A stretch of 32,670 nucleotides of DNA, taken from the NCBI RefSeq assembly GCF_000350145.1, contig NZ_BAOL01000026.1, positions 1 through 32,670 of the forward strand. Reading direction: 5' to 3'. The stretch comes from Ilumatobacter nonamiensis YM16-303. Its GTDB lineage: Bacteria; Actinomycetota; Acidimicrobiia; Acidimicrobiales; Ilumatobacteraceae. The position numbers and the translations under genes were made by a program. The notes under the pieces were generated by a model. That model saw only the letters and a list, made by a program, of their open reading frames with translations. It was not told the DNA's origin and searched no databases. Position 1 is the first letter of the stretch. Each line of letters begins with the position of its first letter. Below are positions 9,467 to 32,501 of the stretch, piece by piece.

Positions 9467-11560
9467 TCAGACGAAGGCGCTGGCGAACACCAGGCTGACG
9501 ATGGTCATCACCTTCAGCAGGATGTTCATCGCGGGGCCGGAGGTGTCCTTGAACGGGTCGCCGACGGTGTCGCCGACGACGGCAGCCTTGTGGGGGTCGC
9601 CGCCCTTGCCGCCGTGGTGGCCGGCCTCGATGTACTTCTTCGCGTTGTCCCAGGCGCCACCCGAGTTCGCCATGAAGATGGCGAGCGCGAAGCCGGTCAC
9701 GAGCGCACCGGCGAGCAGGCCGCCGAGGGCGTCGACGCTGATGAATCCGACGACCAGGGGAACGACGACGGCGAGCGCACCGGGGATCACCATTTCCTTG
9801 AGCGACGCATCGGTCGAGATCGCGACGCAGCGAGCCGAGTCGGGGATCACGCCCGGTTCGCCTTCGCGAAGGCCCGGGATCTCACGGAACTGGCGGCGGA
9901 CTTCTTCGATCATCTTGTACGCAGCGCGACCGACGGCGTCGATCGTGAGTGCGGCGAAGAGGAACGGGAGTCCGGCACCGATGAACAGGCCGATGAACGT
10001 CTCGACCTGTCCGACGTTGAGGTCGAGCACTTCGCCCTCGGCGAGGAGTGCGAACTCGAAGCTCTTGAACAGTGCGAGCGCGGTGAGCGCTGCCGAACCG
10101 ACCGCGAAGCCCTTGGCGACGGCAGCAGTGGTGTTGCCGAGCGAGTCGAGTGCGTCGGTGACCTCACGGACCGACGGGTCGAGCTCGGCCATCTCGGCGA
10201 TGCCGCCGGCGTTGTCGGCGATCGGACCGTAGGCGTCGACCGAGACGACCACGCCCGTCGTGGCCAGCATGCCGATGGCTGCGACCGCGATGCCGTAGAT
10301 CCCGCCGAAGCCGTCGGCCTCGTCGAGGAACGCCAGCTGGCCGCCCCAGTACGCAACGCCGACCCCGATGAGGATCAGGACGACCGAGGCTGCGACCGAC
10401 ACCATGCCGGTGGAGATGCCCGACAGCACGGTGGTGGCCGGGCCGGTCTCGGTCTGCTCGGCGATCTTCTTGACCGGGCTGAAGTGATCCGACGTGTAGA
10501 ACTCGGCGCACTTGCCGAGCGCCCAACCGACGATGAGTCCACCGATCACCGAGATCGCGAGACCGATCGGCTGATCGAACAGATCGGAGTCGCTGAAGAG
10601 CCAGAACGCGGCACCGACGGTGCCGACGGCGGTGATCGCCATGGCGACGTTGGTGCCCATGTGCAGCGCCCGCGCGAGCGCGTGACCCTCGGTGGAGTCG
10701 CCGCCCTTGACGAAGAACGAACCGATGATCGAGGCGATCATGCCGATGAAGGCGATCAGCATCGGGAACACGAGCAGGTTGATGTTGCCGTCGAGACCTG
10801 CGTCGGAGGCGGCGAGGCCACCGGCGAACGCAACGAGCGAGATCGGTGCGATGATCGAGCCGGCGTACGACTCGAAGAGGTCGGCACCCATGCCGGCGAC
10901 GTCGCCGACGTTGTCGCCCACGTTGTCGGCGATCGTGGCGGGGTTGCGCGGGTCGTCCTCGGGGATCCCCGCCTCGACCTTGCCGACGAGGTCGGCACCG
11001 ACGTCAGCGGCCTTGGTGTAGATGCCGCCACCGACACGGGAGAACAGGGCGATCGTCGATGCACCCAGGCCGTAGGCGGTGACGATCTCGAACGCGTCGT
11101 CCACCTCGAGCCACGTGACGAACACGAGGTACGTGAGCATCAGGCCGCCGAGGGCGAGCCCGGCCACGGAGAAACCCATCACCGCGCCGCCGCGGAATGC
11201 GACCGGCAGCGCCTTGCCCGGACCGGACTTCGCGGCCTCGGTCGTGCGGGCGTTGGCCATGGTGGCCACGGTCATGCCGGCGTAGCCGGCGCCGGCCGAG
11301 AGGACCGCACCGAGCAGGTACGTGACCGCTGCGAGGGGAGCGATGACGACCGCGAGGATCACGGCGAGCACGGCGGCGAAGGCGCCGACCCACTTGTACT
11401 CGGCGTGCAGGAAGGCTTTCGCTCCCTTCTGGATCTCGGTCATCAGGAAGACCATGCGCTCGTCGCCGGGCGACTCCTTCTCGACGAGCTTGTAGTAGTA
11501 GCCGGCGAGACCGAGTGCCGCGAGAGCGGAAATCAGTGCGAGATAGGGAACAACGTCCAC
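9467..11560 (-). CDS. hppA: Membrane-bound ion-translocating pyrophosphatase, K+-dependent type
   Basis: The protein is 697 residues with about 16 membrane segments, as usual for the family. It hydrolyses pyrophosphate and pumps H+ and/or Na+ across the membrane. The signature DVGADLVGKVE, followed by GIPEDDPRNPA and DNVGDNVGD, forms the substrate and Mg2+ site. The C-terminal GGAWDNAKK and GDTVGDPFKDTSGPAMN complete it. GNTTAAVAKG (475-484) has Ala, not Lys, at the position that decides potassium dependence, which marks the K+-dependent class. The gate region GADLFESY has Glu in the position seen in Na+-pumping members, so Na+ transport is possible. GTG 11560 is chosen because AGGAGG sits 9 bases upstream; the open frame continues further but without coding signal. 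The gene is divergent from sdhC. It could recycle PPi energy alongside succinate dehydrogenase-driven respiration. Confidence 0.93.
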   Translation of the reverse strand: MDVVPYLALISALAALGLAGYYYKLVEKESPGDERMVFLMTEIQKGAKAFLHAEYKWVGAFAAVLAVILAVVIAPLAAVTYLLGAVLSAGAGYAGMTVATMANARTTEAAKSGPGKALPVAFRGGAVMGFSVAGLALGGLMLTYLVFVTWLEVDDAFEIVTAYGLGASTIALFSRVGGGIYTKAADVGADLVGKVEAGIPEDDPRNPATIADNVGDNVGDVAGMGADLFESYAGSIIAPISLVAFAGGLAASDAGLDGNINLLVFPMLIAFIGMIASIIGSFFVKGGDSTEGHALARALHMGTNVAMAITAVGTVGAAFWLFSDSDLFDQPIGLAISVIGGLIVGWALGKCAEFYTSDHFSPVKKIAEQTETGPATTVLSGISTGMVSVAASVVLILIGVGVAYWGGQLAFLDEADGFGGIYGIAVAAIGMLATTGVVVSVDAYGPIADNAGGIAEMAELDPSVREVTDALDSLGNTTAAVAKGFAVGSAALTALALFKSFEFALLAEGEVLDLNVGQVETFIGLFIGAGLPFLFAALTIDAVGRAAYKMIEEVRRQFREIPGLREGEPGVIPDSARCVAISTDASLKEMVIPGALAVVVPLVVGFISVDALGGLLAGALVTGFALAIFMANSGGAWDNAKKYIEAGHHGGKGGDPHKAAVVGDTVGDPFKDTSGPAMNILLKVMTIVSLVFASAFV

Positions 11561-11640
11561 GGGGTGGTGCCTCCTGGGCGTACTCGGTCGACGCGTGGTT
11601 CGCGGCGAGGTGTGTGGTCGACGGGCTTTCTCCCGGACGA

Positions 11641-11665
11641 CCCGGACCATGATGGCCGGTCCGGG
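11641..11665. promoter_or_regulatory. Inverted repeat in hppA-sdhC intergenic region
   Basis: CCCGGACC (11641-11648) and GGTCCGGG (11658-11665) form a perfect 8-bp dyad with a 9-base spacer. On the minus strand a TAGCAT -10 candidate for hppA (11671-11666) lies immediately upstream, so the dyad would sit at the transcription start: an operator or a 5'-leader hairpin. Confidence 0.4.
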
Positions 11666-15328: not shown

Positions 15329-17458
15329 TCAGTTCGGAGGGAGGGTCACTGCCGTGGCGACGCGGTTCGCCGCGATCGCCGCGCCGTCGATGCCGGTGGC
15401 CAATACCTCGATCGCCAGCTCGCCGAGTGTGTCGGGCACCGTGAGTTCGAGGGTCCCCACCCGCGCGACGTCGTCGGCCTCGACCGAACCCGTGAAGGTC
15501 CATCGCTTGGATCCGCCCGCCCACCGCGCGGTCGCGACGAGGTCGATCGCGTCGATCGGCGTCCGCTCGTCGTTGACGACGTGGACGGCGAGGCAGACGG
15601 CGTCGCCCGCGTTCACCCAGCCTGGCGGCGCGTCGACGACCACGATGATCGGTGCGCACGCCGCCCGCACCGCGGAGTAGGCCGGCTTCGGGATCCGCTC
15701 GGCGTCGAGCACGCTCGTCGACATCGCGGCGACCGGATCGGCGAGTGACGAGAAGCAGAAGCCCCCGGTCGGTCGATACTTGTGTCGTCGCAGCAGTTCG
15801 ATCTGGGAGCGCAACACGGTCGCCTGATGTTCCTGGAGCGCGGTACGCCACGCGTCCGGCGTGGCGAAGTCGGTCGGTGGGAATCGACTGTGGACGTCCG
15901 CGCGGTGGTAGCCGTCTGCGTCCTCGAGCGCGCCCCAGTCGAGGTCCGGCCAGACGTGGTCGACGAGCTGCTGATCGAGCGCCGGGACCGACGCGGACAG
16001 GCTCTCGGTCCCGAACTCGCTGATGTATCGCACGGCGCGGGGTGTCCGCCGAGCCAGCCGTTCGAGGTCGGTGCCCTCTCCCGGTCGCCAGTCGAACCAC
16101 AGGTGGCCGCCCTCACCGTCCACCCACGGCAGCCCGGCGAGCAGGCTGGAGCGGGCGATCGCCGGACGACTGGGGTCGCTCTGTTCGAAGGCGCGCTTGA
16201 CCCACCGGTCGAGCGCCGTTCGGTTCCACGCCGGAACGGGTTGTTTCGCTGCACGTCGGACACGCGACCGCCAGTCGCTGCGTTGATCGGGGTCGGGACT
16301 CGCCGGCTCGTTGTGGGCCGACCAGAGCACGATCGAGGGATGATGGCCGAGCTGATCGACCGCGGCACTCGCCTGGCTGACGGCGCGGGTGCGGACGCTT
16401 CGGGCGTGGGTTCCTTCGAGCGGAAAGTCCTGGAGAACCAGAATTCCGAGTTCGTCGGTGCGGTCGTAGAAGCCGCGTCGGTTGATGTGGCCGTGAACCC
16501 GGACCGTGTTGAGGCCGAGGTCGAGCACGTGCTGGAGGTCGCGCTCGATCGCCGCGTCGTCGGTGTCACCGAGACCGACGGTGATCGGCATCACGTTGAC
16601 GCCGCGGAGGAAGATGCGTTCGCCGTTGACCGAGAAGATCCAGTCGTTGTGTTGGATCTGACGGAGGCCGGTCCGCTGCAATCGCTGGTCGCTGATCTCG
16701 CCATCGACGAGGACCTCGACGACGAACTCGGTGAGCGGCTGGTCGCCCATCTCGTAGGGCCACCAGAGGTCGGGGTCGCGGATGTCGACCGACCACTCGA
16801 ACTCGTTCATCCCCTTCGCCACTGCGGAGCGCTGCTCGTGAACGATCTCGTCGTCACGCCGCGTCAGGATCGTCACGTCGTGGTGGCCGTCGCTGTCGAA
16901 CGTGGCGGACAGAACGACGTGCGCGCGCCGCTCGTCGGCGTCACGGCAGAGGACCCGGAGCCGGTCGATCCGAATCGGACCGGTGTCGAACATCTGCACC
17001 GACCGCCAGATGCCACCGGGATTCCACCCGGCCGGGAGCACGTCCCACTCCTGCAGAACCCCGGTGATGTTGGTGCGTGCCCCCGTTTGTCCGGGGCAGG
17101 TCACCTCGACGGCGAGCACGTGTTCGTCACCGATACGCGCCAGCTGCGTGATGTCGAAACTGTGGGGGACGAAGTAGCCCTCCGAGTCGCCGAGGTAGGC
17201 GCCGTCGAGCCACGCGTCGCCCTGGTAGAAGATCCCGTCGAACATCACCCAGCGACGTCGACCCTCGCCGGGGGGTGACGAGGTGAAGCGATGCCGGTAC
17301 ATCAACGGTCCGGCGCAGTTCTCGAACGCGGCGTCGTGTTGCCAGTGGCCCGGAACGGTGACCTCGGACCACGACGAGTCGTCGCTGTCGAGGCCGATGC
17401 CGAACCGGCGGATGTCGTCGGTTGCGCGCGTGGCGACCCAACGACCCTCCAGCTCCAT
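15329..17458 (-). CDS. Glycoside hydrolase family 2 protein (beta-mannosidase/glucosaminidase-like)
   Basis: The protein is 709 residues from ATG 17458 (MELEGRWVATRATDD). The order is an N-terminal sugar-binding jelly roll (VPGHWQHDAAFENCAGPLMYR, MFDGIFYQGDAWLDGAYLG), an immunoglobulin-like domain and a TIM barrel (NGERIFLRGVNVMP onward). LWSAHNEP gives the acid/base Glu384 and YISEFGTES gives the nucleophile Glu481; a short C-terminal beta domain follows. Family knowledge: GH2 enzymes remove beta-linked sugars with retention; the exact sugar cannot be read. VLQDFPLEG resembles the mannosidase/exo-glucosaminidase branch more than LacZ. There is no signal peptide, so it is presumably cytosolic. 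The TACGAT -10 lies 7 bases upstream, which supports this start over the longer open frame. No sugar transporter is adjacent. Confidence 0.87.
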   Translation of the reverse strand: MELEGRWVATRATDDIRRFGIGLDSDDSSWSEVTVPGHWQHDAAFENCAGPLMYRHRFTSSPPGEGRRRWVMFDGIFYQGDAWLDGAYLGDSEGYFVPHSFDITQLARIGDEHVLAVEVTCPGQTGARTNITGVLQEWDVLPAGWNPGGIWRSVQMFDTGPIRIDRLRVLCRDADERRAHVVLSATFDSDGHHDVTILTRRDDEIVHEQRSAVAKGMNEFEWSVDIRDPDLWWPYEMGDQPLTEFVVEVLVDGEISDQRLQRTGLRQIQHNDWIFSVNGERIFLRGVNVMPITVGLGDTDDAAIERDLQHVLDLGLNTVRVHGHINRRGFYDRTDELGILVLQDFPLEGTHARSVRTRAVSQASAAVDQLGHHPSIVLWSAHNEPASPDPDQRSDWRSRVRRAAKQPVPAWNRTALDRWVKRAFEQSDPSRPAIARSSLLAGLPWVDGEGGHLWFDWRPGEGTDLERLARRTPRAVRYISEFGTESLSASVPALDQQLVDHVWPDLDWGALEDADGYHRADVHSRFPPTDFATPDAWRTALQEHQATVLRSQIELLRRHKYRPTGGFCFSSLADPVAAMSTSVLDAERIPKPAYSAVRAACAPIIVVVDAPPGWVNAGDAVCLAVHVVNDERTPIDAIDLVATARWAGGSKRWTFTGSVEADDVARVGTLELTVPDTLGELAIEVLATGIDGAAIAANRVATAVTLPPN

Positions 17459-17465
17459 ACCGCCG

Positions 17466-17471
17466 ATCGTA
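17466..17471 (-). promoter_or_regulatory. -10 element of leaderless promoter for the GH2 gene
   Basis: TACGAT on the minus strand, 7 bases before the ATG. Confidence 0.5.
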
Positions 17472-17539
17472 ACGACGCGGGTGGTCCGACGAGCGCCGCG
17501 ACTCCAGGCGCCCGATGAGAGCGCCGGGAAACGGTGCGG

Positions 17540-17545
17540 TAGTTT
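17540..17545 (+). promoter_or_regulatory. -10 element of leaderless promoter for the AAA ATPase-selenoprotein operon
   Basis: TAGTTT, 7 bases before ATG 17553; no Shine-Dalgarno is present. Confidence 0.55.
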
Positions 17546-17552
17546 CGCCCAC

Positions 17553-18983
17553 ATGGCAGAGGTTTCACATGATCGTCCGGCGACTCTCGGAGAACTGCGC
17601 TCGTCGGGCTGGGTGTCGCGGCCGATCAAGCAGGAGATGCGTGAGCACGCGATCGAGAAGATCGCCGCGGGTGAGCCGCTGTTCGCCGGAGTGTCGGGCT
17701 ACGAGAACACCGTGATGCCGCAGCTCGAGAACGCGCTGCTCGCCGGTCACGATGTGATCTTCCTGGGCGAGCGCGGTCAGGCGAAGACGCGGATGATCCG
17801 CTCGCTCACCGGGTTGCTCGACGAGTGGATGCCGATCGTCTACGGCAGCGAGATCAACGACGACCCGTACCATCCGGTGTCGCGCCATGCGATCGACCTG
17901 ATCGAGGAGCACGGCGATGCCGCGCCGATCGACTGGGTCCACCGTGACCGCCGCTACGGCGAGAAGCTGGCCACACCCGACACCTCGATCGCCGACCTCA
18001 TCGGTGAGGTCGACCCGATCAAGGTCGCGGAAGGGCGCTACCTCTCCGACGAGCTGACCTTGCACTACGGCCTCGTCCCGCGCACCAACCGCGGCATCTT
18101 CGCGATGAACGAGCTGCCCGACCTCGCCGAACGGATCCAGGTCGGCCTGCTCAACGTGCTCGAGGAGCGCGACATCCAGGTCCGCGGTTACAAGATCCGG
18201 CTGCCGCTCGACGTCGTCCTGATGGCGTCGGCGAACCCGGAGGACTACACGAACCGCGGCCGAATGATCACGCCGTTGAAGGACCGCTTCGGTTCGCAGA
18301 TCCGCACGCACTACCCGCTCGATGTCGAGACCGAGGTCGCGATCATGAAACAGGAGGCCGTGCCGCTCGAAGCCTCCTCACCCGACGGTGAGGTGCACGT
18401 CTCGGTTCCGGAGTATCTCGGCGATGTCATCGCCACGTTCAGCCACCTCGCGCGTGCGAGCAACCAGGTCAACCAACGCAGCGGCGTCAGTGTCCGACTC
18501 AGCGTCAGCAACTTCGAGGCGCTGTCCGCGAACGCACTGCGTCGAGGACTGAAAGCGGGGGAGCGCAGTGTGGTCGCGCGCATCGACGACCTCGGGGCGC
18601 TCCCCGCGTCGTCGCAGGGCAAGATCGAGATCGAGTCGTTGGAGGAGGGTCGCGAGGGCATGATCCTCGACACCCTCATCAAGGGTGCGGTACTGACCGT
18701 GTTCAAGGACGCGGTCGACCCGGCGCAGACGCGTGCCGTTGTCGATGCGTTCGAGGAGGGGGTCGTCGCCCACACCGGTGAGGACGTCTCGAGCACCGAC
18801 CTGGCCGCGCTGGTCGAGCAGGTCGAGCCCCTCCGCGAGCCGGTGATGGCGTTGACCGGCGGCGATGAGTCGCCCGGCGCAATCGCCTCCGCCGTCGAGT
18901 TCGTGCTCGAGGGCCTGCATCTGTCGAAACGACTGAACAAGGACGCCTCCGGAGCCTCGGCCACGTATCGAGGTCGGGTCTGA
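17553..18983 (+). CDS. MoxR/Mg-chelatase-I-like AAA+ ATPase
   Basis: The 476-residue protein starts MAEVSHDRPATLGELRSSG at ATG 17553, just after a TAGTTT -10. The longer open frame upstream overlaps the GH2 gene and is rejected. Walker A is GERGQAKTR (72-80), Walker B plus sensor is GIFAMNELPDLAERIQVGLLNVLEE, and LPLDVVLMASANPEDYTNRGRMITPLKDRFGSQI follows as in ChlI/MoxR proteins. It resembles mycobacterial Rv0958 in size and sequence pattern (from memory), whose neighbour Rv0959 is a VWA protein; here the VWA partner lies at 20775. Family knowledge: such ATPase/VWA pairs act as chaperones or insertases that activate metalloenzymes or remodel complexes. The selenoprotein gene starts 4 bases after the stop, so the two are almost certainly co-transcribed. 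Confidence 0.9.
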   Translation: MAEVSHDRPATLGELRSSGWVSRPIKQEMREHAIEKIAAGEPLFAGVSGYENTVMPQLENALLAGHDVIFLGERGQAKTRMIRSLTGLLDEWMPIVYGSEINDDPYHPVSRHAIDLIEEHGDAAPIDWVHRDRRYGEKLATPDTSIADLIGEVDPIKVAEGRYLSDELTLHYGLVPRTNRGIFAMNELPDLAERIQVGLLNVLEERDIQVRGYKIRLPLDVVLMASANPEDYTNRGRMITPLKDRFGSQIRTHYPLDVETEVAIMKQEAVPLEASSPDGEVHVSVPEYLGDVIATFSHLARASNQVNQRSGVSVRLSVSNFEALSANALRRGLKAGERSVVARIDDLGALPASSQGKIEIESLEEGREGMILDTLIKGAVLTVFKDAVDPAQTRAVVDAFEEGVVAHTGEDVSSTDLAALVEQVEPLREPVMALTGGDESPGAIASAVEFVLEGLHLSKRLNKDASGASATYRGRV

Positions 18984-18987
18984 GCTG

Positions 18988-20106
18988 ATGATCGTCGACA
19001 CGCTGGAGCTCGAACCCGACGACTTCGCGGCCGCCACCGGCTGGGAGATCAAGCCCGAGGGCGCGTGCAAAGGCGAGGTCTGCGTCCCGCTCGGTGCCGG
19101 AGCGTTCGACGCCGTCGACGTCGCCGGTCGGTTGGGGATGGCGATCGTGCGCGACGATCCGAACGACCGCTGGGCGATCGGTCCCGAGTCGCTCGGTGAT
19201 CGGGCACTCGCCACCGCCGAGGCCCCGGAGCTGGTGCTCGACGATCTCGACGGCAACGAGTTCCGCTTGTCGTCGCTGCGCGGCCAGAAGGTCGTGATCG
19301 TGTCGTGGGCACCGTATTGAGGTTGCTCGTTCGACCTGCCCGGGTGGCAGGCGCTGCGCGCCGAACTCCACGACGACGGCCTCGAAGTCGTGACGGTGTC
19401 GCTCGAACTGAGTGGTCCTGAGGCGTCTCGCTCCTTGATCGAGGCGGCCTCGCCGGAACATCCGTCGCTGCTCGATCCGACGCACCGGATGGACGCGTTG
19501 TTCGGCGTCGTCAACATCCCGAACGTGATCTGGGTCGACGAGCAGGGGACGATCGTGCGCCCGCCCGAGCCGGGATGGCCGTCGGAGCGGATGGAGCTGC
19601 CGCGGGACATGATGGGTGCGATTCCCGAGCTCGGCTCGTCGCCGACGGCTCCGGCCCCACCCGAGGACGGACCCGGCCAGTGGGACGTGCTCGGATCGGG
19701 GCAGGTTCGCGCGGCATATCCCGACGCGATTCGGGACTGGGTCGCCAAGGGCGCCGAGAGTGAGTTCGCGCTGCGGCCGAGCGAGGTCGTGTTCCGGTCG
19801 CACCCGCGTTCGGCCGACGTGTCCGCGGCGGCCGCTCACTTCGAATTGGCGAACCGGCTCTGGACCGAGGGTGACCGTGAGCGGGCGATCGAGCACTTCA
19901 ACGACTGCCACCGACTGCAGCCGGACAACTGGACCTACAAGCGCCAGGCCTGGTCTCTGCTCGGCCGGGAGCGAGTGGGCGGCGAGTTCGGACAGTTCGT
20001 TCAAGCTCCCCTGAAGGGTGAGGAATCCGACTGGCCGTTCACCTCGGACTTCACGTCCGACGTGGTGAACACCCCGGTCGGCGGCTACTACCCCTCGACC
20101 CTCTGA
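18988..20106 (+). CDS. Selenocysteine-containing thioredoxin-fold redoxin (TGA at 19318-19320 read as Sec)
   Basis: Read through the in-frame TGA, this is a 372-residue protein with Sec at 111. The N-terminal domain (about 1-80) carries a Cys pair C27/C32 (GACKGEVCVPL). A thioredoxin/AhpC-like domain runs about 84-200: APELVLDDLDGNEFRLSSLRG, KVVIVSWAPY-U-GCSFDLPGWQALRAEL, then LEVVTVSLELSG and the cis-Pro-type segment VVNIPNVIWVDEQGTIV. U111 sits where thioredoxins have the attacking Cys, and Cys113 follows in a U-x-C motif. A TPR-like part (about 280-320) closes the protein. Reading stays in one frame, with the same codon style, for 261 codons after the TGA; a SECIS-like hairpin follows the TGA. 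Without Sec insertion the product would be a 110-residue fragment lacking its active site. A nonsense mutation or sequencing error is the alternative. It starts 4 bases after the AAA ATPase stop. Confidence 0.85.
19318..19351 (+). promoter_or_regulatory. Sec-encoding TGA with bacterial SECIS-like hairpin
   Basis: The TGA occupies 19318-19320. Fourteen bases later CCTGCC (19335-19340) pairs perfectly with GGCAGG (19346-19351) around the loop CGGGT (19341-19345). The apical loop starts 20 bases after the TGA and has G at position two and a GGGU run. This matches the loose bacterial SECIS rule (loop about 16-37 bases downstream, G near the loop start). A bulged A at 19334 and two more pairs could extend the stem. 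Confidence 0.7.
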
Positions 20107-25434: not shown

Positions 25435-25854
25435 ATGTCAGACCTCGATACCAGCGCGGAATCCACCGAACCGAAGGCGCACGCGCGGATCGTCTACCTC
25501 GGCCCGGTGTCACCTCACTGGGAGGTCTACGGCGACTGGGGTGACCGTCAGACGCTCGATGAATTCCGCGCCCGCGTGCTCGCCCGACTGGTGCTGCTGC
25601 CCCGTGAGGACCCGCAGTTCCGACGGAACCGTGAGCGCATCGTGCGCGATGCCGAGCGCGAGATGATCTCGATCGAATGGGACCTCGGCGTGGTGATGCA
25701 GCAGTCGAACGCACCGAAAGCCGAGACCGAGGCGAGCAGCGCGAGCGACGAGAGTGCCTCGGAAGAGGACGCCCCGGCCGAGGATGCGAGCCCGAGCGAG
25801 GACCAGACGCCGGACGAACCGTCCGAGCCGTCCACCCCGTCCAGCGACGCCTGA
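25435..25854 (+). CDS. Hypothetical protein with acidic tail, upstream of ppk1
   Basis: The 139-residue protein has two parts. A folded-looking part (about residues 15-90) reads ARIVYLGPVSPHWEVYGDWG, then DEFRARVLARLVLLPREDPQF and RRNRERIVRDAEREMISIEWDLG. A disordered tail of Glu, Asp, Ser and Pro follows (EEDAPAEDASPSEDQTPDEP). I do not recognise the family, and there is no signal peptide or membrane segment. ATG 25435 is preferred over 25426 because a TAGAGT -10 ends 7 bases before it. The gene lies 14 bases upstream of ppk1 on the same strand, so co-transcription is likely; an accessory role in polyphosphate metabolism is only suggested by position. Confidence 0.75.
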   Translation: MSDLDTSAESTEPKAHARIVYLGPVSPHWEVYGDWGDRQTLDEFRARVLARLVLLPREDPQFRRNRERIVRDAEREMISIEWDLGVVMQQSNAPKAETEASSASDESASEEDAPAEDASPSEDQTPDEPSEPSTPSSDA

Positions 25855-25868
25855 CGAGACGGGGCGCG

Positions 25869-28073
25869 GTGGCAAACGTTCCATCCTGGCCGGCACCGCA
25901 CGACGAGCAGGCCGACGAATCGGTTCCCCCCGTCCAGCTCCCGCTCCGCGGTCCCGTCGGGTCGGGACGCCCCGGCGCGGACGAACGCTTCCTGAACCGC
26001 GAGTTGAGCTGGCTCGCGTTCAACGATCGGGTACTGGAACTGGCGTCCGAGCCCGGAATCCCTTTGCTCGAGCGGGCGAAGTTCTGCGCGATCGTGTCGA
26101 CCAATCTCGACGAGTTCTTCCAGGTCCGCGTCGGGGCGCTCAAGGACCAGATCGCGGCGGGCTTCGACCGTCCGACTCCGGACGGTCGGACGCCCGCTCA
26201 GCAGATCGAGGACATCATGGCGCACGTCCCCGACTTCGTCGAGCGCCTCGACGCCGCGTTCGTCGACGAGCTCATCCCGGCGCTTGCGGCCGAGGGCGTC
26301 GAGATCATCCACTACGCAGACCTCTCCGGCGAGGAGATCGACGCGCTCGACCGGTGGTACGAGGAGCGGGTGTACCCGGTGCTCACACCGCTCGCGGTCG
26401 ACCCGGGTCACCCGTTCCCGTACATCTCCGACCTCGCACTCTCGCTTGCGGTCAACGTGGCCGACCCCGACACCGGCGATCGGCGGTTCGCCCGGCTCAA
26501 GGTGCCGAACGTCTTCCCCCGCCTCGTCGAGGTCGCCACCGGACGATTCCTGCCCGTCGAGGAACTGATCGCCGCGAAGCTCGACACCTTGTTCGTCGGC
26601 ATGATCGTCGAGGAGTGGACGGTGTTCCGGGTGAGTCGCAACGCCGACATCAACCTCGAAGAGGACGAGGCCGACGACCTGCTCGAAGCGGTCGAGAGCG
26701 AGTTGCGCCGCCGTCGGTTCAACAAGGCCGTGCGACTCGAAGTGGCCCACGACGTCGGCCCGGAGCTGCTCGCGTTGCTCGTACGTGAGCTCGAACTGAC
26801 GCACGCCGACGTCACGTACCACCGCTCGCTGCTCGACCTCAGTTGCCTGTGGGCGATGATGTCGATCGACCGTCCCGACCTGAAGGACGAGCCGTGGCCC
26901 TCGGTCAACGCCGGGCGCCTCGCAGCAGCCGAGGACGCCGACCGTCCGATCTTCGACGTGATGCGGCATCGCTCCGTTCTCGTCCATCTGCCCTACGAGA
27001 GCTTCTCGACCAGCGTCGAGGAGTTCATCAAGCAGTCGGCCGACGACCCGAAGGTGAAGTCGATCAAGATGACGCTGTACCGCTCCGGCGGGGACAGCGC
27101 GGTCATCCGCAGCCTGATCCGTGCGGCCGAGAGCGGCAAGCAGGTGGCGGTCCTCGTCGAGCTCAAGGCGCGCTTCGACGAGGCGACCAACGTGCAGTGG
27201 GCGAAGCAGCTCGAGCGCGCGGGGGTTCACGTCGTCTACGGGATGGTCGGGCTGAAGACCCACTCCAAGGTCGTGCTCGTGGTCCGGGACGACGGCGACC
27301 GCCTGCGTCGCTACTGCCACATCGGGACCGGCAACTACAACGGCAAGACCGCCAAGATCTACGAGGACCTCGGCCTGCTGACGTGCGACGAGAACATCGG
27401 CGACGACGCGATGGAGCTGTTCAACCACCTCACCGGCTACAGCCGCACCGTCGACTACAGCACGCTGCTCGTCGCTCCCCGGGATCTGCGTCGGGCGTTG
27501 CTCGATCTGATCGAACACGAATCGTCGTTCGGTCCTGATGGACACATCACGCTGAAGTGCAATTCGCTCGCCGACAAGGAGATGGTCGAGGCGTTGTACG
27601 CCGCGAGCGCCACGGGAACACGCATCGATCTGATCGTCCGCGGCATCTGCTGCCTGCGCGCCGGCGTGCCGGGACTGTCGGAGAACATCCGCGCTCGCAG
27701 CGTGCTCGGCCGCTACCTCGAACACAGTCGGATCTACCGGTTCGCTCACGGGAACGTCATCCACGGCGAACGGGTCGCCGGAGCGACCGGAGATGCGGTG
27801 TACCTCATCGGCTCGGCGGACCTGATGCCGCGCAACCTCAACCGGCGCGTCGAGGTGATGGTGCCGATCGAGCATCCGCGACACACAGCATGGCTCGATC
27901 AGGCGATCGAGTTCGCGCTCGACGACGACGTCGTGGCGTGGGAGATGCAGCCGGACGCGTCGTGGGACCGGATCGGCCCGACGAACGCGTTCGAGCCGCA
28001 TCCTCAGGAACGGATGTACCGCTGGACGGTCGAACGCCAGACGGCCGCCACCTCCACCCGCGGTTCCGACTGA
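25869..28073 (+). CDS. ppk1: Polyphosphate kinase 1
   Basis: The 734-residue protein shows the PPK1 order. The N domain has FLNRELSWLAFNDRVLELA and FCAIVSTNLDEFFQVRVG, the head domain has YPVLTPLAVDPGHPFPYIS, and two phospholipase-D-like C domains follow. KSIKMTLYRSGGDS and GLKTHSKVVLVVR place the autophosphorylated His at 465. IGTGNYNGKTAKIYEDLGLLT, and IIRGICCLRAG-like IDLIVRGICCLRAGVPG, complete the active site. It reversibly polymerises the gamma-phosphate of ATP into polyphosphate. GTG 25869 is chosen because the upstream open frame lies over the neighbouring gene. It sits directly before the pst operon, a meaningful phosphate-storage and uptake cluster. Two tandem promoters could serve it (the 25422 leaderless promoter; no separate one is visible). 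Confidence 0.95.
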   Translation: MANVPSWPAPHDEQADESVPPVQLPLRGPVGSGRPGADERFLNRELSWLAFNDRVLELASEPGIPLLERAKFCAIVSTNLDEFFQVRVGALKDQIAAGFDRPTPDGRTPAQQIEDIMAHVPDFVERLDAAFVDELIPALAAEGVEIIHYADLSGEEIDALDRWYEERVYPVLTPLAVDPGHPFPYISDLALSLAVNVADPDTGDRRFARLKVPNVFPRLVEVATGRFLPVEELIAAKLDTLFVGMIVEEWTVFRVSRNADINLEEDEADDLLEAVESELRRRRFNKAVRLEVAHDVGPELLALLVRELELTHADVTYHRSLLDLSCLWAMMSIDRPDLKDEPWPSVNAGRLAAAEDADRPIFDVMRHRSVLVHLPYESFSTSVEEFIKQSADDPKVKSIKMTLYRSGGDSAVIRSLIRAAESGKQVAVLVELKARFDEATNVQWAKQLERAGVHVVYGMVGLKTHSKVVLVVRDDGDRLRRYCHIGTGNYNGKTAKIYEDLGLLTCDENIGDDAMELFNHLTGYSRTVDYSTLLVAPRDLRRALLDLIEHESSFGPDGHITLKCNSLADKEMVEALYAASATGTRIDLIVRGICCLRAGVPGLSENIRARSVLGRYLEHSRIYRFAHGNVIHGERVAGATGDAVYLIGSADLMPRNLNRRVEVMVPIEHPRHTAWLDQAIEFALDDDVVAWEMQPDASWDRIGPTNAFEPHPQERMYRWTVERQTAATSTRGSD

Positions 28074-28225: not shown

Positions 28226-28298
28226 TTTGTTCGTCGCCCGAGCACTGGGTTCGGCGCGACGTTCAACCCCCCAAACAACACCATTGGAGTTCGACAGC

Positions 28299-29480
28299 GT
28301 GAACAGCAAACGTCGTATTTTCGCCGGGGCAGTCGCCCTTTCATTCGTGGTCGCAGCATGCGGCAGCGATGACGATTCGAGCAGTGACGAAGCCGAGACC
28401 GAGGCCAGCGCGGCCGTCGAGGACGCAGAGTCCGCGGTGACCGAGGCCGAAGAAGCCGCCGAGACGGAAACGTCCGAGGCGATGGAAGAAGCAGAGACCG
28501 AGACATCCGAAGCGATGGAGGAAGCAGAGACCGAGACCTCCGAAGCGATGGAGGACGAGGGCTCCGAGGAGACCGCCGACCTGTCGAGCCTCTCGGGTGA
28601 CATCACCATCTCGGGTTCGTCCACCGTCGAACCGGTCTCGGTGCGCGTCCAGGAACTCTTCAACGAGCAGGCTCCCGACGTGAACATCACCGTGGACGGT
28701 CCCGGAACCGGTGACGGTTTCGTGCTGTTCTGCGAGGGTTCGACGGACATCTCCGACGCTTCCCGCGCGATCAAGGACGAAGAGGCCGCTGCCTGCGAAG
28801 AGGCCGGCATCGAGTTCACCGAGCTCCAGGTCGGGATCGACGGCCTCGCCGTGATCACGAACTCGGCCAACGACGCGGTCGAGTGCCTGTCGTTCGAGCA
28901 GATCTACGCCATGGTCGGTCCCGAGTCGACCGGCATCACCAATTGGAGCGATGCGAACGAACTCGCCGTCGAAGTCGGTGGCGAAGGCGACCTGCCCGAC
29001 GCCGAGCTCGAGATCTACGGCCCCGGTGAGGAATCGGGTACGTTCGACAGCTTCATCGAGATCGTCCTCGAGGGAATCGCCGAAGAGCGTGAGCAGGAGG
29101 CGATCACTCGTCCGGACTACAACCCGTCCGCCGACGACAACGTGATCCTGCAGGGCATTCAGGGAGCCGACACGAGCCTCGGTTGGGTCGGCTACGCGTT
29201 CGCCGACACTGCGGAGAACGTCAAGCTCCTCGAGGTCGACGGTGGCGAAGGCTGTGTCGCAGCCGACCCGGACACGATCGCATCGAACGAGTACCCGGTC
29301 AGCCGGCCGCTGTTCATCTACGTGAACAACGCGACGGCCGCCGAGAACCCGCAGCTCGAGGCGTTCGTCGACTTCTACATGGCGGAGGGTCTCGACACCG
29401 CCGTTGCCGAGGTCGACTACGTGGCGCTGAGCGACGATGCCAAGGCCGAGGTTCGGGCCGCCTGGGACAGCGCGCTCTGA
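28299..29480 (+). CDS. pstS: Phosphate-binding lipoprotein of the Pst ABC transporter
   Basis: The protein is 393 residues from GTG 28299, with GGAG 9 bases upstream. A lipoprotein signal peptide (MNSKRRIFAGAVALSFVVAAC) ends in the lipidated Cys21. Next comes an acidic Ser/Glu/Ala spacer (about 22-95) containing three 11-residue repeats. The binding domain then begins ITISGSSTVEPVSVRVQELF, with GPGTGDGF and YGPGEESGTFDSF as phosphate-contacting loops. It captures phosphate outside the membrane for PstC/PstA. The acidic spacer is longer than usual and could lift the domain above the cell wall. Two hairpins follow the stop, which would favour excess PstS over the membrane subunits. PHO boxes upstream imply induction by phosphate starvation. 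Confidence 0.94.
   Translation: MNSKRRIFAGAVALSFVVAACGSDDDSSSDEAETEASAAVEDAESAVTEAEEAAETETSEAMEEAETETSEAMEEAETETSEAMEDEGSEETADLSSLSGDITISGSSTVEPVSVRVQELFNEQAPDVNITVDGPGTGDGFVLFCEGSTDISDASRAIKDEEAAACEEAGIEFTELQVGIDGLAVITNSANDAVECLSFEQIYAMVGPESTGITNWSDANELAVEVGGEGDLPDAELEIYGPGEESGTFDSFIEIVLEGIAEEREQEAITRPDYNPSADDNVILQGIQGADTSLGWVGYAFADTAENVKLLEVDGGEGCVAADPDTIASNEYPVSRPLFIYVNNATAAENPQLEAFVDFYMAEGLDTAVAEVDYVALSDDAKAEVRAAWDSAL
28461..28559 (+). repeat. In-frame 33-base tandem repeat in pstS (three units)
   Basis: Three units (28461-28493, 28494-28526, 28527-28559) each encode ETETSEAMEEA or a close variant. They form part of the acidic linker after the lipidated Cys and differ mainly at third codon positions. 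Confidence 0.9.
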
Positions 29481-29492
29481 TCGGTCCCCCCG

Positions 29493-29554
29493 CCGGGTCC
29501 GTCATGACCCGGTGAACGGGTGTCCTCCGGTACCGCATGGTGCCGGAGGACACC
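29493..29554 (+). terminator. Tandem hairpins between pstS and pstC (partial terminator/mRNA stabiliser)
   Basis: The first hairpin is CCGGGTC/GACCCGG (29493-29512, 7 bp, 6-base loop). The second is a 16-pair stem (29519-29534 with 29539-29554, one G-T pair) closed by a GCAT tetraloop. There is no T-run. The position just after pstS suggests attenuation or 3'-end protection that raises PstS relative to PstCAB. Confidence 0.7.
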
Positions 29555-29645
29555 GGTGTTCGGCGCCGGAGCACCGACCGCTCCCGCTCCGATCGCCACT
29601 ACTCTCCCGCCAAACTCTCCACAGGAAGTCATCGAACGCATCGCC

Positions 29646-30572
29646 ATGAGCGACACCACTCTCACCGTGCAGGATTTGGCCGCCCCCGGCGGTCGGCGCG
29701 CACGAGAAGTCCTCGTCAGAGTCATCGTGACCCTTGCCGCGATGGTCTCGGTACTGATCTCCGTCCTCATCATCTGGTCGCTCCTCCGGGAGGCCTGGAC
29801 CTTCATGAGCGAGGTCGATTGGGCGACCACCTGGGGACAGATCGGTTGGTTCCCGCGACGCGGGATCTACGACGTTCCGACGTTGCTCGTGGCCACGATC
29901 ATCGTCACGGTCGTCGCCATGATCGTCGCCACACCGCTCGGTCTCGGCGCCGCGATCTACCTGTCCGAGTACGCACGGCCCAAGGCCCGCAAGTTCCTCA
30001 AGCCCGCGTTGGAGATCCTGGCGGGCATCCCCTCGGTGGTGCTCGGTGCCTTTGCGATCGCGTTCATCGCGCCGAACGTTGTGGCCAACATCGGAGGCGA
30101 CAGCGGAGGGTCGTTGCTCGCTGCCGGCATCGGCGTCGGGATCCTCACGATTCCGCTCGTCGCATCGATCTCCGAGGACGCGATGCGCTCGGTTCCTCGA
30201 GAGCTGCGCGAAGCCTCCTCCGGTCTCGGCGCACGAAAGTTCACGACCGTGACCCGCGTGGTGCTCCCCGCTGCGACGTCGGGGCTGGTCGCCGCATTCA
30301 TCGTCGCGACCAGTCGAGCGATCGGGGAGACGATGGTCGTCTTCCTCGCCGGTGGTGCCGCCGATGCGGCGCTCTTCAACGCCGACCCGTACGAAGGCGG
30401 CCTCACCATGACCGCCGCCATGGCGTCGCTGGCGAGCGGGACCGACCAGGTGGTCGGCGAAGGTCTGACGTTCCAGAGCCTGTTCTTCGTGGGCCTGGTG
30501 CTGTTCGTCATCACACTGCTGTTGAACCTGCTCGGGAACGCATTCGTTGCACGTGTCCGAGAGAAGTACTGA
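29646..30572 (+). CDS. pstC: Phosphate ABC transporter permease PstC
   Basis: The 308-residue protein starts MSDTTLTVQDLAAPGGRR at ATG 29646. The frame could begin at GTG 29520, but that part lies in the hairpin region and looks non-coding. Six membrane segments are visible. The ABC permease loop SEDAMRSVPRELREASSGLGARKFTTVTRVVLPAATSG matches the EAA motif that docks PstB. TSRAIGETMVVFLAGG is a conserved PstC/PstA segment. It forms the membrane channel with PstA. No good ribosome-binding site lies near the ATG. It is followed 10 bases later by pstA. Confidence 0.93.
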   Translation: MSDTTLTVQDLAAPGGRRAREVLVRVIVTLAAMVSVLISVLIIWSLLREAWTFMSEVDWATTWGQIGWFPRRGIYDVPTLLVATIIVTVVAMIVATPLGLGAAIYLSEYARPKARKFLKPALEILAGIPSVVLGAFAIAFIAPNVVANIGGDSGGSLLAAGIGVGILTIPLVASISEDAMRSVPRELREASSGLGARKFTTVTRVVLPAATSGLVAAFIVATSRAIGETMVVFLAGGAADAALFNADPYEGGLTMTAAMASLASGTDQVVGEGLTFQSLFFVGLVLFVITLLLNLLGNAFVARVREKY

Positions 30573-30582
30573 GAAAGCTCCC

Positions 30583-31551
30583 ATGATCTTCACCGAACCC
30601 CTCGTCGGCGACAAGACCCGCGAGTCCATCCGAGCGAGTATCACCGAACCCCGCGCCGACGTGGCGGGCCGTGTCTTCAAGGCACTGGTCGTCGGGTCGA
30701 TCGTGGTCACCCTGCTCATCGTCGGAATCCTGTTCTTCGACCAGATCAACGGCGGCTGGCCGCAGCTGAGCACGCGTCTCGGAGGGTTCCTCCAGGGGAC
30801 ACTCCGCTCTCGATCCGAGGACGAGCTGCTCGGGGTCCACCAAGCCCTGTATGGATCGCTGTGGATCGCCATCTTCGTCGCGGTCTTCGCGTTCCCGATC
30901 GGGATCGCCGCAGCGGTGTACCTGGAGGAGTATGCGTCGACGAACAGGTTCACCGGTTTCGTCGAGCTCACCATCCGCAACCTCGCCGGCGTCCCGTCGG
31001 TGGTGTACGGACTGCTCGGTCTCTACCTCTTCGTGAACGATGGTTGGATCAAGGAGAACATCACCAATGGTCCCACGGTCATCTCCGCAGGTCTGACCCT
31101 CGCGATCCTGGTTCTCCCGGTGGTGATCATCACCTCGCAGGAAGCCCTCCGATCGGTTCCGTCGGGACTGAAGGAAGGCGCATACGGAGTCGGGGCGACG
31201 AAGTGGGACGTGATCCGCACGCAGATGCTTCCGTACGCCGCCCCCGGCATCCTCACCGGAACTCTGCTCTCGATGTCGCGCGCGATCGGCGAAGCGGCCC
31301 CGCTGATCTTGATCGGTGCGATCACCGGTGGCCTCACGGCCAACCCGGGCTTCACCGACGTCGGCGCACTCGACGACCGATTCACCGCCATGCCGATCAT
31401 CATCACGACGTGGGTCCAGCAGTCCGGGCGTGATGCAGGATTCGCCGTTGCGGCCGCCGCAGCGATCGTCGTCCTGTTGTGCTTCGTCCTGCTGCTGAAC
31501 CTCGCGGCGATTCTGCTGCGGAACCGATACGAGAACAAGCGCACCGTCTGA
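30583..31551 (+). CDS. pstA: Phosphate ABC transporter permease PstA
   Basis: The 322-residue protein starts at ATG 30583 with GAGAAAG 6 bases upstream. The longer open frame overlaps pstC and is rejected. Six membrane segments are visible. Conserved parts are [33 protein letters not shown], the EAA loop [38 protein letters not shown], and [17 protein letters not shown]. There is a periplasmic-side insertion after the first segment (about residues 55-85). It pairs with PstC to move phosphate released by PstS. It lies 10 bases after pstC and 86 bases before pstB. Confidence 0.93.
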
Positions 31552-31637
31552 CGTCAGCGCATGAACATCGACGACCATCCCCCCACCCACCCCTTCGACA
31601 CAGCTCAGGTGCAACAATGAAACTGAGGACCACTGAA

Positions 31638-32501
31638 ATGACCGACACCGACAGCTCAGGCGTAGCCGCGGAGGCCGAGACGCAGGACGAGTACGGCGCA
31701 TCGGCGGCGTCCGCACGAAACGTGTTCGAGGCGCGCGCGCTCAACGTCTTCTACGGCGACTTCCGCGCTGTTCGAGACGTCGATCTCGACATCCGGGAGC
31801 ATGAGATCACGGCGTTCATCGGCCCCTCGGGCTGCGGCAAGACCACACTCCTGCGTTGCTTCAACCGGATGAACGATCTTATCCCGTCCGCGCGTGTCGA
31901 GGGATCGCTCCGCTATCACGACGTCGACCTGTACGACGAGGGCGTCGACTCGGTGGAGGTGCGCCGGCGGATCGGCATGGTGTTCCAGAAGCCGAATCCG
32001 TTCCCCAAGTCGATCTACGACAACGTGGCCTACGGCCCTCGGGTCGCCGGACGCGCGAAGAAGAAGAGCGACACCGATGACATCGTGGAGCGTTCGCTCC
32101 GTCGTGCCGCGCTGTGGGACGAGGTGAAGGACCGCCTCAACACCTCGGCGCTGGGAATGTCGGGTGGCCAGCAGCAGCGGCTGTGCATCGCTCGCGCCGT
32201 TGCCGTCGACCCCGACGTGTTGCTGATGGACGAGCCGTGCTCGGCGCTCGACCCGATCGCCACCGCGCGCATCGAGGAACTGATGCAGGAGATCAAGGAC
32301 GAGTACACGATCGTGATCGTGACCCACAACATGCAGCAGGCTGCGCGTACGAGCGATCGGACTGCGTTCTTCTCCGTCGAGGTGAGCGAGACGAGCGACA
32401 CGCGCACGGGGATCATGGTGGAGATGAATCCCACCGAGAAGGTGTTCTCCTCGCCCGACGACGAGCGGACGGAGCAATACGTCACGGGCCGGTTCGGCTG
32501 A
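31638..32501 (+). CDS. pstB: Phosphate ABC transporter ATP-binding protein PstB
   Basis: The protein is 287 residues from ATG 31638, which has GAGG 11 bases upstream. ATG 31617 in the same frame would add 7 residues and cannot be excluded. Walker A is GPSGCGKTT (62-70), Q-loop [23 protein letters not shown], signature MSGGQQQR (Met for the usual Leu), Walker [14 protein letters not shown], and switch His in [11 protein letters not shown]. The [11 protein letters not shown] segment is typical of PstB. An unusual acidic N-terminal extension of about 30 residues precedes the ATPase domain. The stop overlaps the phoU start (TGATG), indicating translational coupling. Confidence 0.95.

Follow-up and report, generated by a model that had tools for sequence, protein, structure and literature searches.

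The locus and its reading frame

The window, the whole stretch of 32,670 nucleotides analysed here, carries at 18988-20106 (+) a gene with an in-frame TGA at codon 111 (19318-19320, +). Read through this codon, the gene encodes 372 residues: 110 codons precede the TGA from the ATG at 18988, and 261 follow it up to the stop TGA at 20104-20106. A preliminary description of this DNA had proposed a single frame divided by a TGA, with 261 codons of coding sequence beyond it; translation confirms both, and the flanks that it quoted are exact (KVVIVSWAPY-U-GCSFDLPGWQ). The flanks contain the motif W-A-x-x-U-G-C, here W107-A-P-Y-U-G-C113; Cys113 (19324-19326, +) is the second Cys/Sec residue of the U-G-C active-site motif. 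Genetic code table 11 yields a 110-aa open reading frame (ORF) and a 238-aa ORF from GTG 19390, the split that had been foreseen for a routine gene caller.

The G+C-rich window holds 140 ORFs of at least 90 aa on its two strands together. Since long ORFs abound on both strands, the length of the open frame proves little, and we rejected it as evidence. Homology is more informative. A single match to the NCBIfam model NF041054, the "ResA-like WAxxUGC motif-containing protein" (WAxxUGC_long), spans residues 1-370 unbroken across the TGA (E 2.9e-130), with 434.7 bits against a curated equivalog cut-off of 300; the frame therefore stands above the level of chance.

Directly upstream, across a gap of 4 nt, lies a MoxR/ChlI-type AAA+ ATPase gene (17556-18983, +; the start at 17556 was chosen within an ORF of 17283-18983). 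Farther away are a frame at 9467-11650 (-), which we take to be a membrane pyrophosphatase, a frame at 25677-28073 (+), presumably a polyphosphate kinase, and a frame at 28227-32501 (+), which we assume to belong to a phosphate ABC transport cluster.

Selenocysteine machinery of the genome

The assembly comprises 4.28 Mb in 399 contigs and is 99.56% complete. It encodes selA (415.6 bits), selD (368.6 bits), and selB (275.3 bits), which shares 4 bases with the end of selA; a single tRNA-Sec, with a UCA anticodon, passes the cut-off at 63.2 bits. The preliminary description had supposed that this organism makes selenocysteine (Sec), and had named selA, selB, selD, and selC as the genes to look for; all 4 are present, and the supposition is supported. 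The SelD of this genome (L017:1501-2418) bears a TGA of its own in the motif GAGUGCK, and is therefore probably itself a selenoprotein.

The same genome has a second WAxxUGC gene (C398:9096-10208, -), 56% identical to the first and with TGA at the same position. The genome, whose closest relatives with names are Ilumatobacter and other Acidimicrobiales, combines the full Sec machinery with at least 2 WAxxUGC genes that ORF calling by table 11 breaks in two. A third, distant thioredoxin-like frame (C188:22702-23181) likewise reads TGA in frame at the position of the nucleophile, in the sequence Y-A-P-H-U-P-V-C; no NCBIfam model matches it above its own cut-off.

Codon 111 across relatives

We surveyed 395 genomes of the same class, drawn from a larger group. 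At E <= 1e-20, at least 117 of them match the family; at least 40 pass the curated cut-off. Among 72 class-set loci examined, 5 were dropped: L006, which has no match; L003, the distant frame on C188, a different UxxC redoxin in which TGA is aligned as well; and L072-L074, fragments that end short of codon 111. The remaining 67 members, among them the window gene and its paralogue, divide into 50 with TGA and 17 with TGC or TGT at codon 111. Two genomes of the same genus, G027 and G254, likewise have TGA here. The best 80 loci listed from database records add Actinomycetota, Chloroflexota, and metagenome-assembled genomes (MAGs) under several labels (Acidobacteria, Deltaproteobacteria, Gammaproteobacteria, Verrucomicrobiaceae, Burkholderiales, and others); here the codon is TGA in 69, a Cys codon in 8, and TAG in 3. 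Seven of these loci repeat stretches of the 67-member set, so that the 147 members examined amount to 140 distinct ones.

An alignment of homologues at this position had been proposed as a check, and its outcome is uniform: codon 111 encodes Cys or is TGA or TAG in all 147 members. Like the search for the sel genes, this check leaves the Sec reading unrefuted. The FastTree tree of the 140 distinct members requires at least 7 changes between Sec and Cys. C27, C32, U/C111, and C113 are invariant in 140 of 140; in every other column, Cys occurs in 20 rows at most. One stretch, present as both L045 and L169, has U-H-C in place of U-G-C.

A SECIS-type hairpin

A predicted bacterial SECIS hairpin lies at 19335-19351 (+). 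It has a stem of 6 bp and a 5-nt loop with G at loop position 2 followed by another G (CCUGCC, loop CGGGU, GGCAGG); the loop begins 20 nt after the UGA, and the predicted energy is -15.7 kcal/mol for a 43-nt stretch. The available text of a 2026 review (PMC13188914) gives bSECIS criteria of a 3-9 nt loop, a 4-16 bp stem, G in the first two loop positions, a spacing of 16-37 nt, and a minimum free energy (MFE) of at most -7.5 kcal/mol; the window hairpin agrees with every one of them.

The pairs are conserved according to the residue encoded at codon 111. Of the distinct Sec forms, 115 of 116 can form all 6 stem pairs, versus 7 of 24 Cys forms; once the loop rule is applied as well, the counts are 114 of 116 and 5 of 24. 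Codon choice follows the same pattern. Leu117 is CTG or TTG in all 116 Sec forms (background in the same genes 0.477), Gly119 is GGG or GGT in 63 of 63 (0.361), Val119 is GTG in 47 of 52 (0.411), and Pro118 is CCC or CCA in 109 of 114 (0.492); the binomial tests at these sites ignore relatedness. Two-sided changes from C-G to T-A occur in 6 members at pair 18-34 and in 3 at pair 19-33. A relatedness-aware pair test, with 4 supported pairs, has too few of them (median p 0.25). In 26 of the 116 Sec forms, the MFE structure of 45 nt contains at most 4 of the stem pairs. The region is no more stable than its dinucleotide shuffles (z 0.37); stability was accordingly rejected as evidence, and the argument was built on pair conservation and codon bias.

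Codon identity, tRNA-Sec, and selA

The 3 TAG members belong to Geodermatophilaceae: two to Blastococcus and one to Geodermatophilus. In all 3 genomes, the top match to the tRNA-Sec model (65-66 bits) has a CTA anticodon; two weaker matches over the cut-off are tRNA-Ser. ARAGORN labels these CUA tRNA-Sec genes (L176, L177, L178) as tRNA-Pyl. Pseudonocardia kunmingensis (L098), which has the TGA form, has a tRNA-Sec with the anticodon TCA. Six Cys-codon records (four Frankia, one Verrucomicrobiaceae, one Rhodoferax) give 21 weaker matches to the tRNA-Sec model, of at most 49.2 bits. ARAGORN, run on the 20 that have a locus, assigns them to tRNA-Ser, tRNA-Cys, or tRNA-Leu; two Frankia matches exceed the Rfam tRNA-Sec cut-off of 47 (48.1 and 49.2 bits), and ARAGORN calls them tRNA-Ser.

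Within the class, the Sec form travels with the machinery. Among the candidates scored, selA at 1e-50 is found in 94 of 98 TGA-form genomes, counted by a TGA inside the family match (its exact place was checked in 50 fetched members), versus 1 of 17 Cys-only genomes (Fisher p 5e-15, relatedness ignored). This table omits G031 and G238, which have only fragments. In 26 genomes searched for tRNA-Sec at 1e-9, there is a match in 5 of 5 TGA controls and, among the candidates scored, in 0 of 17 Cys-only class genomes. Of the 4 TGA genomes without selA at 1e-50, G292 and G188 do have a tRNA-Sec match, and the other two (75% and 70% complete) give none at 1e-9. The one Cys-form genome with selA, G162 (C418:1666-3024), has the highest selA score among the class matches listed, 602.9 bits. 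This selA stands alone, since the genome has no tRNA-Sec match at 1e-9, and may reflect contamination or be a relative of selA with a different function.

The family is a natural test of Sec identity at one aligned position: TGA is paired with a UCA tRNA, TAG with a CUA tRNA, and a Cys codon with the absence of tRNA-Sec.

Domains and fold

An AF2 model built on 24 sequences has a pLDDT of 91.9 and a pTM of 0.91. Residues 77-190 (19216-19557, +) form a thioredoxin-fold redoxin domain of ResA/TlpA type. It matches Pfam PF00578 (AhpC-TSA) with 48.9 bits against a gathering score of 26, and Redoxin is also above its cut-off. Over approximately residues 73-255, the PDB fold matches include the DsbE-like 3gl3 (Z 14.2, 139 aligned, rmsd 2.1) and ResA 2f9s (Z 13.4, 136 aligned, rmsd 2.2). 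The preliminary description had placed the TGA at the attacking position of a thioredoxin-fold active site. The redoxin fold and the nucleophile position stand; the motif is U-G-C, not CxxC or UxxC. The first 50 residues have no long hydrophobic run that would serve as a membrane anchor, as judged by eye, and the oxidoreductase is probably cytosolic.

The N-terminal domain (about residues 1-70; 18988-19197, +) contains the invariant C27-x4-C32; the Cys codons lie at 19066-19068 (+) and 19081-19083 (+). In 119 genomes, a profile of this domain has 42 matches among the candidates scored. Forty-one coincide with NF041054 matches, and the 42nd, in G006, is marginal (4.8e-4). Modelled alone, the domain has a pLDDT of 76.1; with this query, no PDB fold match exceeds Z 2.7, and a PDB profile search gives one chance-level pilin match (E 0.041). 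The missing PDB match is no proof of a new fold.

The C-terminal part is helical, with a TPR-like repeat at residues 281-314 (19828-19929, +). The Pfam TPR_2 match is weak (E 1.6e-4, 22 bits, below the gathering score of 27), and the part has profile matches to designed TPR proteins.

Gene neighbourhood

MoxR adjoins the gene in 4 close relatives (L095, L096, L212, L213). In a Baikal Dehalococcoidia MAG (L119:6382-11098), MoxR and VWA genes precede the WAxxUGC gene, and the VWA ORF ends 15 nt before it; this MoxR neighbour, in a distant phylum, echoes that of the window. At 1e-8, MoxR is not matched in 77 of the best 80 loci listed, some of which have little flank. By MoxR/VWA search and all-against-all ORF clustering of the best 80 loci, there is no generally conserved neighbour, and we rejected an operon partner. 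The largest cluster of neighbouring ORFs, with ORFs over or opposite the gene excluded, reaches 13 of the best 80 loci, at scattered places. Conserved neighbourhood points to no substrate. A mobile-element origin was also considered and rejected: no match was found in plasmids (1e-20), phages (1e-10), or PHROGs (0.001).

A proposed mechanism and its alternatives

The machinery, the pattern at codon 111, and the SECIS-type hairpin together support the earlier suggestion that this TGA stands for Sec in place of Cys. On sequence evidence, we put the probability that this redox enzyme carries selenocysteine, read from UGA111, in its active site at roughly 95%. SelB with Sec-tRNA(UCA) would bind the hairpin and insert Sec. 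The Sec selenolate would then attack a disulfide or peroxide substrate, and a selenenylsulfide would close between Sec111 and Cys113 within U-G-C. Thiols would re-reduce this bond, most likely the invariant Cys27 and Cys32 acting as an internal relay, and the TPR-like part at the C-terminus would serve to hold a substrate or partner. As a whole, a Sec oxidoreductase with U-G-C chemistry, re-reduction by thiols, and partner-holding by TPR is very probable. The enzyme is most likely a selenenylsulfide-based reductase, and a thiol-disulfide or peroxide reductase role is likely. That Cys27 and Cys32 specifically relay to the active site is put at somewhat less than even odds. More tentative still is the proposal that the N-terminal domain, as a small and hitherto undescribed fold, acts as a built-in redox partner of the UGC site, such that Sec111, Cys113, Cys27, and Cys32 form a relay in one cytosolic chain.

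The strongest competitor concerns the chemistry: the selenoprotein may be a peroxidase of peroxiredoxin type that reduces hydroperoxides directly. The AhpC-TSA and Redoxin matches are in keeping with it, as is the name "Prx-like" given to a UGC family in a table of PMC2398784 (2008), as far as the available text of that paper goes. Yet the nearest folds and redoxin profiles are those of ResA, TlpA, and DsbE, and Sec sits where many relatives read WASWC. Peroxiredoxins of the AhpC/TSA kind have the catalytic motif P-x3-T/S-x2-C, and the corresponding TxxC is absent from the active site WAPYUGCSFDLP. For this last reason a ResA-type reductase is favoured, without certainty, and a peroxidase is the rather unlikely option.

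It is improbable that U111, C113, C27, and C32 jointly bind a metal or cofactor in place of a redox relay. In favour of such a site, just 4 Cys/Sec columns are invariant. Some MoxR-VWA pairs have a role in cofactor handling, so the MoxR ATPase next door in the window and close relatives, and the MoxR-VWA pair of the Dehalococcoidia MAG, would fit. Against this, the great majority of the best loci listed have no MoxR match, some being short-flanked, and Sec at the nucleophile position of a redoxin fold speaks for thiol chemistry.

Two further alternatives deny the Sec codon itself. If TGA were a true stop, the locus would be a pseudogene or two genes with reinitiation at GTG 19390, the pair of ORFs that table 11 yields. 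We regard this as very improbable: TGA recurs in most members of both the class set and the best loci listed, with homology on either side; the genome has another copy with TGA; the TGA forms track selA and tRNA-Sec; and reinitiation at 19390 would drop residues 111-134, Cys113 among them. Least credible of all is a sequencing or assembly error for TGC or TGT, conceivable in a draft of 399 contigs and in a family that has Cys forms, but made very unlikely by the paralogue, G027, and G254, which share the TGA position, and opposed by the TAG in 3 genomes with a CUA tRNA-Sec and by the intact SECIS-type hairpin.

Comparison with known systems

The selenocysteine-containing reductase favoured here belongs to a family that is not new, since NCBIfam already models it and a Prx-like selenoprotein family with UGC appears in a table of 2008. 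The read-through protein is a member of NF041054, and none of the tested features differs. The 2008 survey of GOS data (PMC2398784) tabulates a "Prx-like (UGC-containing)" selenoprotein family, and the 2026 review (PMC13188914) lists a "UGC-containing TlpA disulfide reductase family protein". As far as the available text of these sources goes, their proteins share with ours the redoxin domain (pfam00578 and cd02966) and the UGC motif; an N-terminal CX4C or a TPR part is not mentioned there. Matched by description alone, they may be the WAxxUGC family or a shorter sibling. The available main text of the review does not name NF041054, and the literature searched, which covered few subscription papers, yielded neither the names NF041054, WAxxUGC, and WAxxUGxC nor a description of TAG members or the CX4C domain. 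What is unexplored in this family is its chemistry and its N-terminal two-cysteine domain.

The TAG members have a precedent. The available text of PMC5330540, citing an earlier report, describes UAG-Sec in Geodermatophilaceae in FDH, UGSC-motif, and AhpC genes. The CUA tRNA-Sec and the TAG Sec sites are common to those selenoproteins and to the members described here; TAG in the WAxxUGC family is added by this analysis.

A further parallel is with the thiol-disulfide oxidoreductases ResA, TlpA, and DsbE. The thioredoxin fold is common to both (PDB Z 12-14), although at 48.4 bits the protein misses the NCBIfam ResA cut-off of 170. ResA, TlpA, and DsbE have CxxC, whereas the protein here has U-G-C, with one residue between; it also adds an N-terminal CX4C domain and a C-terminal helical/TPR part. 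Since Sec and Cys forms require at least 7 changes on the tree, the family offers a clean system to ask what maintains a UxC motif together with a fused CX4C domain. If the internal relay is true, this would be a self-reducing selenoenzyme, in which a UxC selenenylsulfide loop, one residue shorter than usual, replaces the CxxC loop.
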